DNA of 35,696 nt from Leptospiraceae bacterium (lineage in GTDB: Bacteria; Spirochaetota; Leptospiria; Leptospirales; Leptospiraceae): assembly GCA_025360185.1 (NCBI GenBank), contig JANYCR010000337.1:1-35696 (forward strand), given 5' to 3'. The notes under the pieces were generated by a model. It saw nothing but the letters and a program-made list of their open reading frames with translations. It did no database searches and was not told the origin of the DNA. The position numbers and the translations under genes are program-made. This document shows, one piece after another, positions 6,740-23,382 of the stretch. Position 1 is the first letter of the stretch; every line of letters begins with the position of its first letter.

Positions 6740-7459
6740 CTACTCACTTGGCGAACTTGGAAAGAAAAATATCTTTGGACAATTTCCAAATCCATTCTGT
6801 CCGCCCTTAGTCTTAATCGGATTACCGGGCGGATTACCCCATTCGTATAAAACATAGACAGAAGAAACGTTATTCCCTTTACAGGAAAGTCGGATAGCTC
6901 CAGTAAGCTTTGGAAGTTTTTTTTCAACGATTGCGTTTACTTCTTCTTTGCCAACGTTCTTGTCCGCAAGAGAATCGAAAGCTTTGGAAATATCACGGGC
7001 ATTTTCGAGTGCCCATTTAAAATAAGCAACTGGCTCGAGCGGAGAGCATATTCCATGTTTAACCCACTCATGACGCTCTAAGCATTTCTCTTTTCCTGCC
7101 ATGAAGTCACTAAGTGATTTCCATTCATGCGAAGTATAAAGATCTTTCGGTTCTGGGTATTTGCAAAATTTTCCCAATTTCTCACTTTGATTTTTACATT
7201 CACTTGGATCGCAATTACCTTCCGGAAATCCTTTCGTATAATTAGGCCAAAGCCCATGAAGTTGTAAAATTGATTTCTTTGGAAAAGTTTTACAGCTAGG
7301 GTCATTACCTTGCTTTTTACAAAAAGTAGCAGGGACGGTTAAATCAAGTCGATATAATTTTTCCTTACCTGAATCAAGACTACAACTAGGTTCAGCTATT
7401 AGTGAAGTAACTTGAAAAGTTATATAGAATAAAATTAAATTAAATATATTTTTAAACAA
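6740..7459 (-). CDS. Secreted RNase T2-family ribonuclease
   Basis: Endoribonuclease that would cleave RNA through a 2',3'-cyclic phosphate intermediate, probably in the periplasm or outside the cell. It has 239 residues with a signal peptide at about 1-22. Both catalytic sites are intact: CAS I, HGLWP, at 68-72 (His68) and CAS II, HEWVKHGIC, at 130-138 (Glu131, His135). Several cysteines (26, 47, 56, 83, 87, 99, 126, 138) suggest the disulfides usual for the family. The start is TTG at 7459, supported by AGGAG six bases upstream; no ATG start would keep the signal peptide. It is convergent with the thioesterase gene and lies downstream of the SpoIIE-phosphatase gene on the same strand. Confidence 0.9.
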   Translation of the reverse strand: MFKNIFNLILFYITFQVTSLIAEPSCSLDSGKEKLYRLDLTVPATFCKKQGNDPSCKTFPKKSILQLHGLWPNYTKGFPEGNCDPSECKNQSEKLGKFCKYPEPKDLYTSHEWKSLSDFMAGKEKCLERHEWVKHGICSPLEPVAYFKWALENARDISKAFDSLADKNVGKEEVNAIVEKKLPKLTGAIRLSCKGNNVSSVYVLYEWGNPPGNPIKTKGGQNGFGNCPKIFFFPSSPSE

Positions 7460-21316: not shown

Positions 21317-22048
21317 TTATTTGTAAGTAAGGTAATGAGTTTTTAGCAAAACCCAATTCTCATCTTGTTTCACGTGAAACGAAAAACTAATTAATCGTCC
21401 GGCCTCATCATAAGTCAAGACTTGCATTCTTTTAGAAGAACCCTGGATATTTTCTCTTTTTTCTAAGCGACCTTTCTTATCGAAATAGTATTTAATAAAA
21501 CCTATCGACTTTTTCTTTTCATCGAAAATTTCTTGAATTAAAACATTCTCATCCAGAATATCTTTCTTGGTAGAGAAGGATTCTTGCCCTCCGCCTTCTT
21601 CTTCCCATTTCGTTTCACACTCCATTACAAATGCTTCATTCATAGAAAAAATTCTATGGCGAAGTAATCCTTTGCCATTTCCCAAAACAACATTTATTTC
21701 TTTAAGTGATCCAGCCTGGGTATAAAGAAAGGTTTTCTTTTCTTGTGATGATTTATCGGGAGCGAAGAGCTCTTCTACTTTCAGTTTTCCATTTTCATAA
21801 GTATAAATAATTTCTCCATCTGCTTCACCTTTCATATTTACAAATTTTTCTTTCGCAAGCTTTCCCTCTTGGTCATATTCATAAGTAGCTGAATAAACAG
21901 TCTGTCCTGTCCTACCTTTTACAGTTTCAGAAATAGGACCAAATTTTTCTAGCCCCATCGTGAAGCGATCCAAGTAAGACCACTTTCCGGGAGTGTAAGC
22001 AGATAAAGTAGATGTTAGAATTAGGAAAAAGAAGATTAATGATTTCAT
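21317..22048 (-). CDS. Secreted protein with YD/RHS-like short repeats
   Basis: An exported protein of about 243 residues. A signal peptide (MKSLIFFFLILTSTLSA) follows the ATG at 22048. The frame extends to an ATG at 22072, but neither start has a ribosome-binding site; 22048 gives a normal charged signal-peptide start. The mature part has four short YD-like units: YEYDQEGKLAKEKF, YTYENGKLKVEEL, YYFDKKGRLEKREN and LTYDEAGRLISFSF. Such units build RHS-type beta sheets; this protein is too short to form an RHS shell. The last unit is encoded over a near-perfect parS palindrome (21366-21381). It lies immediately downstream of the ECF-sigma group on the same strand. Confidence 0.65.
   Translation of the reverse strand: MKSLIFFFLILTSTLSAYTPGKWSYLDRFTMGLEKFGPISETVKGRTGQTVYSATYEYDQEGKLAKEKFVNMKGEADGEIIYTYENGKLKVEELFAPDKSSQEKKTFLYTQAGSLKEINVVLGNGKGLLRHRIFSMNEAFVMECETKWEEEGGGQESFSTKKDILDENVLIQEIFDEKKKSIGFIKYYFDKKGRLEKRENIQGSSKRMQVLTYDEAGRLISFSFHVKQDENWVLLKTHYLTYK
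21366..21381. promoter_or_regulatory. Candidate parS centromere site
   Basis: TGTTTCACGTGAAACG matches the bacterial parS consensus TGTTTCACGTGAAACA at 15 of 16 positions and contains a perfect 14-bp palindrome (21367-21380). It lies inside the YD-repeat gene, about 3 kb before parA and parB. That is the expected distance range for a ParB loading site. A 14-bp palindrome of this exact sequence is very unlikely by chance. Confidence 0.85.
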
Positions 22049-22088
22049 CAATACTTGTATCGACGAAATCATAATTTAATTGAGCAGC

Positions 22089-22418
22089 TCATTTCACAAG
22101 AAAAGAGATTGGTTCTATTAGAGAAGATATTCCCTCTTCTTTGTATGCAGTTTCATAAAGGGGAGAAAATTCATCTGAAAATAATAAGTTAAAAATATCT
22201 AGATCAGCAAAATTAGAATTCAATAACGCATCCGGCGCAGAATAAGTGACAGTAGCAATAGCACCAAAAAAAATAAATGCTGAAGCAGTAAGAATAAAAC
22301 GGGTTCGCCTTTGCTTGTATTCATACTTCCTCGAAACATTTCTTGCGATATTCTGGCTCCATTGTTCACTCTCTAGTCTCGATTGAATTTCTTTAGATTG
22401 TATTTCTTCGTTATTCAT
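22089..22418 (-). CDS. One-span membrane protein, putative anti-sigma factor
   Basis: A 109-residue protein with a charged cytoplasmic N-terminal part (1-40), one membrane span (about 41-60, FILTASAFIFFGAIATVTYS) and a periplasmic tail of about 49 residues. Topology and position directly after an ECF sigma gene suggest an anti-sigma factor of the short CnrY type, although no zinc-binding (ZAS) motif is seen. The reading frame is open to 22535, but the ATG at 22418 has GGGAG six bases upstream (22425-22429) and overlaps the sigma gene by only 8 bp, so it is preferred. Function is inferred from context alone. Confidence 0.6.
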   Translation of the reverse strand: MNNEEIQSKEIQSRLESEQWSQNIARNVSRKYEYKQRRTRFILTASAFIFFGAIATVTYSAPDALLNSNFADLDIFNLLFSDEFSPLYETAYKEEGISSLIEPISFLVK

Positions 22419-22920
22419 TTTTATCTCCCATAAATGCAATTTTTCGCAAAATCTCTTTTCCTCGAAACGTACGCGATTTGACCGTGCCTTGTTTAATCGA
22501 AAGTTTCTCTGCAATTTCCTTTTCCGAAAATCCATCAGAGTAATACTGTAAAATTGTCTTATACTTCTCGGGAATTTGTTTCAGATACTGGATTAGTAAA
22601 TTCGGCTTTTCCTCTTGTGATAATTCTATCAAATTCTGTTGCTTTAACTTCATTGTCGCTTTCTCAATTTTTTTTTCTTCTCGCATAAGCTTTTCATTCA
22701 TTCGGTAAGATTCATTACGTGCGATGGTATAAAGCCAAGTAGATAGTTTTGATTCTTCGCGAAACTTTCCACTAACCAACGCTTTATATGCACGAAGATA
22801 AGTTTCTTGCACAACATCATCTATAGAATGAAAAAATCTCTCTGCGAGATTTTTTTCAATCGCAGAGAGAACTATAGACTTTGTTGAATTTACGATTTCA
22901 GTAAAATCAGAATTAGTCAT
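22411..22920 (-). CDS. ECF-family RNA polymerase sigma factor
   Basis: A 169-residue sigma70-family protein of the extracytoplasmic-function group. Region 2 (about 30-85) includes DDVVQETYLRAYKAL and STWLYTIARNESYRMNEK, which bind the -10 element and core enzyme. Region 4 (about 115-160) includes IPEKYKTILQYYSDGFSEKEIAEKLSIKQGTVKSR-type residues, the helix-turn-helix for the -35 box. Regions 1 and 3 are absent as expected. It has no Shine-Dalgarno and its start overlaps the upstream Spy-like gene by 8 bp, so translation is likely coupled. A perfect ECF promoter precedes the operon, which suggests autoregulation. Confidence 0.93.
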   Translation of the reverse strand: MTNSDFTEIVNSTKSIVLSAIEKNLAERFFHSIDDVVQETYLRAYKALVSGKFREESKLSTWLYTIARNESYRMNEKLMREEKKIEKATMKLKQQNLIELSQEEKPNLLIQYLKQIPEKYKTILQYYSDGFSEKEIAEKLSIKQGTVKSRTFRGKEILRKIAFMGDKNE

Positions 22921-23332
22921 GGCTGTGTTTTTTTAGTAACTCAGTTATCCTATCGGCTAATTTGTTTCTTTGCTCAGGCGTCAGAACAGCATGAAACTCC
23001 ATGAACTTTTTTGTCATAAAGACTCTCATTTGATCTCTTTTTGTGCCACTTGTTTCAAACGCCTTGTTTACTTTTGCTTCATCAATTTGAGGTTGGCGAA
23101 TCTGGTCAACTATCTCATCTGGAAACATTTTTACATCTAGCTCTTTTCGTTTATCTAAAATCTCTTTTTTAATTCGTTGCAATTCCGCTTTCTGCTTATC
23201 ATTTAGATCAAGCTCACTCGAAACTTTTTTTACAATCCAGTCTGCTCGATCAGCAAGTGAATGGTGACGGCAATTTATAATAGCAAGTAACGCTATTAAC
23301 GATAGGGAAAATACTTTAATAAGATGTTTCAT
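22913..23332 (-). CDS. Spy/CpxP/CnrX-like periplasmic sensor lipoprotein
   Basis: A 139-residue exported protein. Residues 1-20 are a signal sequence and Cys21 (AIINC) fits a relaxed spirochaetal lipobox. The rest is helical and ends in a LTPEQRNKLADRI segment (residues 117-129), the LTxxQ motif of Spy/CpxP/ZraP/CnrX proteins. Histidines 23-24, 114 and 136/138 could bind metal. In CnrX systems a periplasmic sensor of this family controls a membrane anti-sigma and an ECF sigma encoded alongside, which is the arrangement here. The start at 23332 has AAGGAGAT just upstream; the longer reading from 23368 would begin within the promoter and is rejected. Confidence 0.8.
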   Translation of the reverse strand: MKHLIKVFSLSLIALLAIINCRHHSLADRADWIVKKVSSELDLNDKQKAELQRIKKEILDKRKELDVKMFPDEIVDQIRQPQIDEAKVNKAFETSGTKRDQMRVFMTKKFMEFHAVLTPEQRNKLADRITELLKKHSHD

Positions 23333-23336
23333 TCTT

Positions 23337-23344
23337 ATCTCCTT
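23337..23344 (-). promoter_or_regulatory. Shine-Dalgarno that sets the start of the Spy-like lipoprotein
   Basis: AAGGAGAT on the minus strand lies four bases before the ATG at 23332 and immediately downstream of the ECF promoter. It fixes the start at 23332 instead of the in-frame ATG at 23368. Confidence 0.7.
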
Positions 23345-23354
23345 GTTTTGCAAG

Positions 23355-23382
23355 TAAGACCTACACACTCGGAGAAGGTTCC
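23355..23382 (-). promoter_or_regulatory. ECF-type promoter of the Spy-like/ECF-sigma operon
   Basis: On the minus strand GGAACC (23377-23382) is followed after exactly 16 bases by GTCTTA (23355-23360). This is the -35/-10 pattern of ECF sigma factors (GGAAC, about 16 bases, GTC/TCTNA, as for E. coli sigma E). Transcription would begin near 23347, giving a leader of about 15 bases. It is the only match of this kind I noticed in a gene-upstream position in the window. Confidence 0.8.

Follow-up and report, generated by a model that had tools for sequence, protein, structure and literature searches.

Within the window, the whole stretch of 35,696 nucleotides that was analysed from the 5.8 Mb draft genome of a Leptospiraceae bacterium, three overlapping genes are found on the minus strand behind an ECF promoter. 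The features of the locus are as follows.

23357 to 23382, minus strand: ECF promoter, with the -35 element GGAAC at 23382-23378, a 16-nt spacer and the -10 element GGTC at 23361-23358, followed by T
22913 to 23332, minus strand: spy, encoding a lipoprotein of Spy/CpxP/CnrX fold (139 aa; ATG at 23332, stop at 22913)
22411 to 22920, minus strand: ecf, the ECF sigma factor gene (169 aa; Sigma70_r2 and Sigma70_r4_2)
22089 to 22418, minus strand: asf, the putative anti-sigma factor gene (109 aa; assigned by family alignment and topology)
22039 to 22072, minus strand: 15-bp inverted repeat at the junction of the triad with the following gene, from a scan for terminator-like structures
21317 to 22072, minus strand: gene for a downstream secreted protein of 251 aa with weak YD/MORN-type repeats

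The promoter upstream of spy reads GGAACCTTCTCCGAGTGTGTAGGTCT (23382-23357, minus strand). The open reading frame coordinates agree with the overlapping three-gene set behind an ECF promoter described in the initial annotation, with an 8-bp overlap at both the spy/ecf and the ecf/asf junction. The inverted repeat following asf (22072-22039) is kept in three congener sequences and, judging from its sequence and position, is probably a terminator or a leader hairpin. The downstream 251-aa gene probably starts within the 3' arm of the repeat, at 22048 (ATGAAATCA). We considered this gene (21317-22072) as a fourth member of the operon. No homologue was found beside other triads, the distance from asf varies (among four congener sequences, three have 17-21 bp and one has about 270 bp) and a conserved hairpin lies in between; its membership is thus doubtful and was rejected. 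Elsewhere in the window, the translation of 6740-7459 (minus strand) resembles, as judged by eye, a secreted RNase T2-type protein, which is unusual for a spirochaete.

Conservation of the triad and its promoter

The sigma factor matches the family models PF04542 (Sigma70_r2) and PF08281 (Sigma70_r4_2) above their cut-offs, as well as TIGR02937 (71.7 bits, cut-off 42.9), in agreement with its initial assignment. Its PDB matches are SigW, AlgU and RpoE, and it contains regions 2 and 4 only and lies behind an autoregulatory promoter of the GGAAC type, as for ECF sigma factors (group 4 of the sigma-70 family). ECF circuits form the third pillar of bacterial signalling. No member has been studied in 102 of 157 ECF groups (PMC8103513).

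GTDB genomes were searched with the sigma factor alignment, yielding 80 loci, and the 71 nearest relatives were taken for a count of gene order. The ecf-asf pair was found in every one of these (71/71), and the complete order spy-ecf-asf in 67. The triad arrangement is therefore conserved far beyond chance, and the gene-order check that the initial annotation had named beforehand came out in favour of the circuit. Triads occur in Spirochaetota, Firestonebacteria, Myxococcota/Deltaproteobacteria and Cloacimonadota, and the ECF relatives form a distinct group in which nearly all members reside within triads. Homologues of the lipoprotein are present in 34 of 61 relatives, and the family of the 109-aa protein in 73 of 393 Spirochaetota genomes. 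One metagenome bin, which appears to be the same as genome G003 and is among the nearest relatives of the host, carries two triads (L039 and L040), which lie on separate contigs in neighbourhoods of identical gene order; a mixture of two strains or species is a more likely cause than a duplication.

Regions upstream of spy were searched for promoters de novo, with no motif assumed. The commonest bipartite word was GGAAC-N17-GGTC, and GGAAC followed by GGTC after 15-18 nt (consensus GGAAC-N16/17-GGTC) was present in 43 of 69 triad upstream regions, as compared with 0.5 in shuffled sequences. This family-wide test corroborates the ECF promoter that had been proposed for the window alone. The same promoter was found in 8 further loci, upstream of an additional Spy-like gene at the head of the operon (loci with such a gene include L051, L053, L056, L059, L065, L071 and L082). 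From these sequence patterns, the spy-ecf-asf operon is predicted to be autoregulated through the GGAAC-N16/17-GGTC promoter. In many triads outside the Leptospirales, the operon was seen to open with an extra secreted, Met/Gly-rich Spy-like protein behind the same promoter.

The Spy-like sensor and its known counterparts

The spy product belongs to the LTXXQ/Spy/CpxP superfamily by both profile and helical fold. It matches the Pfam family LTXXQ (1.9e-14; 54.6 bits against a cut-off of 24.3) and Metal_resist (6.5e-8), and its AF2 model (pLDDT 93) was ranked by Foldseek with STV, Spy and CpxP (prob 1.00 to Spy), and also with CnrX. Superposition with Co-bound CnrX (2y3b) gave TM-scores of 0.66/0.70, and the Spy/CnrX-like fold first suggested for this protein is hence matched by structures from both sides. 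A signal peptide is followed by the lipobox LAIINC with Cys21, identifying a bacterial lipoprotein; N at position -1 is acceptable in spirochaete lipoboxes, and 40 of 45 close Spy relatives retain the Cys. Two LTxxQ-type motifs supply the invariant positions (L41, Q47, L117 and Q121), and His114, located before LTPEQR, is kept in 36 of the 45.

The initial annotation had likened the gene set to CnrX-CnrH-CnrY, the cobalt/nickel system encoded on pMOL28 of Cupriavidus metallidurans. This analogy holds for the architecture and for the sensor fold: CnrYXH likewise combines a periplasmic four-helix sensor with an ECF sigma factor and a short one-span anti-sigma factor, in an autoregulated operon with a pump as target. 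It fails for the gene order (Y-X-H, as opposed to sensor-sigma-anti here), for the metal ligands and for the anti-sigma factor, with no similarity of the 109-aa protein to CnrY detectable by hhalign (probability 0.4%, E 0.15). The sensor encoded here is moreover a lipoprotein, unlike CnrX, and a type VII ABC exporter (see below) is predicted as target in place of the CnrCBA RND pump. By the sequence features tested, the triad falls outside the Cnr family.

A metal-sensing circuit, in which a CnrX-type lipoprotein would bind metal and thereby bring about sigma factor release through the membrane protein, was weighed against these data. The proximity of the sensor fold to CnrX and the three-part architecture shared with cnrYXH speak for this reading. 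The residues we take to be the metal ligands of CnrX are H42, H46, E63 and H119. The additional Met123 and its role have been described elsewhere (PMC7689651). When aligned by hhalign (6% probability), CnrX H42, H46, E63, H119 and M123 correspond to V34, S38, K55, K109 and F113 of the lipoprotein; with all five positions occupied by other residues (0/5 kept), a CnrX-type metal site was rejected. As had been remarked at the outset, the ligands do not evidently align, and the low probability of the alignment makes this mismatch a moderate argument. The terminal His pairs, pointed out in the initial annotation, do not support a role in metal sensing. Among the 45 close Spy relatives, H23 is kept in 10, H24 in 4, H136 in 8 and H138 in 7; the pairs are genus-specific and were dismissed as a conserved metal site. 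In addition, no metal efflux genes adjoin the triad here, and the exporter predicted as target is of the YbbAP type rather than a metal pump.

Triad sensors of other phyla are often secreted or membrane-anchored proteins rather than lipoproteins, and many of those outside the Leptospirales have a Met/His-rich N terminus with a conserved Cys, a feature in favour of metal sensing. The signal may therefore differ from clade to clade. Also in its favour, the three-part SigAb-AabA-AabB system of Acinetobacter is copper-responsive: it likewise comprises an ECF sigma factor, a 107-aa one-span anti-sigma factor and a periplasmic protein encoded by overlapping genes, and has a small direct regulon that includes its own operon (PMC12153292). 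This likeness is one of layout, and SigAb-AabA-AabB differs from the triad in gene order and in its link to copper (PMC12153292). Taken together, we regard metal sensing as an unlikely function of the triad. As to the initial description of an envelope-stress or metal-sensing circuit, it is the envelope-stress half that fits the regulon evidence better, at the expense of the metal half.

The CpxP-CpxA-CpxR system and Spy of Escherichia coli have a sensor of the same superfamily and fold. The triad differs from them in the lipid anchor of its sensor and in the ECF/anti-sigma pair that this sensor has for a partner. In E. coli, CpxP adjoins CpxRA, and some spirochaete Spy relatives are likewise found beside OmpR-type two-component genes: nine relatives of the same class adjoin genes for an OmpR-type response regulator/histidine kinase with no ECF sigma factor (L007, L010, L018, L020, L021, L024, L026, L028 and L029). 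Pfam confirmed both a response regulator and a histidine kinase at L007, and a response regulator only at L021. The two-component-linked homologues form two groups in the tree, interspersed with homologues linked to an ECF sigma factor. An independent origin of the two clades was not retained, as a single origin is permitted by the AU test (p 0.17). The triad resembles CnrYXH in layout and, by analogy, probably CpxP/RseB in logic.

The 109-residue membrane protein

The product of asf has no family match in Pfam or NCBIfam, and a PDB search with the profile of its family returned designed proteins and chance matches only. The protein has a cytoplasmic motif, RLxSxxWxxxIAxxV, a single transmembrane span at approximately residues 41-60 and a periplasmic tail of about 50 aa. 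An alignment of the family reveals a near-invariant Trp, which 72 of 74 members have approximately 21 residues ahead of the span. The span itself is predicted in all 74, and a positive-inside, N-in orientation in 73; the tail has a median length of 45 aa. This layout (one span, N-in, Trp motif) is that expected of a short membrane anti-sigma factor. In class II anti-sigma factors (CnrY-like), a short N-terminal helical domain wraps around sigma2 and sigma4; the 109-aa protein has a short N-in cytoplasmic segment and is a candidate for this class.

To model the ECF-anti-sigma pair, the homologous pair from locus L006 was treated as one chain, with a TGA stop read through under NCBI table 4. The fused model, made without a linker and from a shallow, mostly unpaired alignment, has good helices and a sigma2/sigma4 arrangement unlike that of known complexes (TM to target about 0.35 against 4cxf and 1or7). 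The lack of a recognisable complex in this linkerless model, along with that of any family match, would be compatible with asf encoding a small membrane protein of another kind, such as a positive co-factor. We consider this very improbable: asf lies directly 3' of the sigma factor gene in all 71 nearest relatives, which is the standard place of anti-sigma genes, and the cytoplasmic motif is conserved at a fixed distance from the span. The 109-aa protein is thus most likely an anti-sigma factor on sequence grounds. Of the one-span putative anti-sigma factor put forward in the initial annotation, the single span, the N-in topology and the place in the operon stand, and contact with the sigma factor is what we infer from them.

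Predicted targets and mode of action

The host genome was scanned with the strict consensus GGAACYN15-16GGTC, which weaker sites would escape. The 17 matches are no more than in the control; 16 could be placed, and all but 2 of these are inside genes. The two intergenic matches precede the triad and a YbbA/YbbP-type operon, which overturned the notion of a regulon confined to the triad operon. The second operon encodes an ATPase of the LolD/YbbA type and a YbbP-like permease of 845 aa with duplicated FtsX (267 bits to YbbP, well below the 999-bit family cut-off), and the promoter ends approximately 40 bp upstream of the start codon. This strict promoter before ybbAP is new, and its -35 and -10 elements are unchanged in the triad-bearing congeners G002 and G003, where both the sequence and the length of the spacer (17 to 16 nt) have changed. 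In G004 it is degenerate (AGAAC). The promoter is absent from G001 and G005, in which ybbAP is present and the triad was also not found, and from G006, which has a divergent triad only. More remote ybbAP orthologs, from the order's other families, lack it as well, including cases with a triad, and the ybbAP target is therefore characteristic of the host's own clade. Within that clade, the triad appears from the promoter match to control a YbbAP-type (type VII) ABC exporter.

In other lineages, type VII pumps (MacA-MacB-TolC or Lol-like) directly follow the triad at L063, L068, L069, L089, L092 and L094, which belong to Firestonebacteria, Cloacimonadota and two other Spirochaetota. In L068 and L094, the pump region is immediately preceded by a second consensus promoter. 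As these loci represent about three independent lineages, the link between triad and pump is suggestive, not statistical.

On balance, with moderate confidence, we favour a self-contained envelope-stress switch, in which a Spy-gated anti-sigma/sigma pair has its own operon and the YbbAP-type exporter as outputs. At rest, the 109-aa protein would hold the sigma factor at the inner membrane via its Trp-containing cytoplasmic helix, and the Spy/CpxP-like lipoprotein would bind its periplasmic tail and keep it in the inhibiting state. The mechanism is, by analogy, most likely akin to that of RseB and CpxP, with Spy keeping the anti-sigma factor inhibiting. Titration of Spy by misfolded or hydrophobic periplasmic material, or its reshaping by a ligand, would release the sigma factor. 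This would then act on its own operon, supplying more chaperone and more anti-sigma factor to reset the switch, and on the exporter, which would clear hydrophobic compounds from the inner membrane.

Spy might instead be an output chaperone only, with the 109-aa protein sensing alone, for instance through RseA-like proteolysis of its tail. A few ECF/anti-sigma pairs are without a recognisable Spy gene alongside (L093 and L095), and the extra Spy-like genes under the same promoter are what would be seen for an output. However, the linkage of spy to ecf-asf at the operon head in 67 of 71 loci, the CpxP-like position of relatives adjoining two-component systems and the short tails of the 109-aa family render an output-only role for Spy less probable, albeit a more serious contender than metal sensing.

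The triad could represent a widespread and previously undescribed ECF group with an anti-sigma family of its own. Its Spy/CpxP-type sensor would have been swapped between outputs of the sigma/anti-sigma and the two-component kind, and the group would control type VII ABC exporters (YbbAP, MacAB-TolC, Lol-like), chaperone-gated by hydrophobic or misfolded envelope cargo. We put this broader proposal forward tentatively, at somewhat short of even confidence. It would demonstrate that a single sensor family serves both two-component and sigma factor outputs. The circuit is directly testable, since the sensor, a putative anti-sigma family that profile libraries do not recognise, the promoter code and a concrete target are all in hand.

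YbbAP-TesA, a type VII ABC system of E. coli, draws hydrophobic compounds out of the inner membrane (PMC12646458). It has a similar ATPase and permease with duplicated FtsX, whereas no TesA gene adjoins the operon here, and control of such an exporter by an ECF sigma factor is a new claim. It would supply a regulator and a physiological context for YbbAP-type exporters, the role of which is a recent finding. Just downstream of ybbAP (L243:1104-2951, minus strand) we also observed a gene for a secreted protein of 615 aa that has a VWA domain and, at its C-terminus, a weak CsgG-like match.
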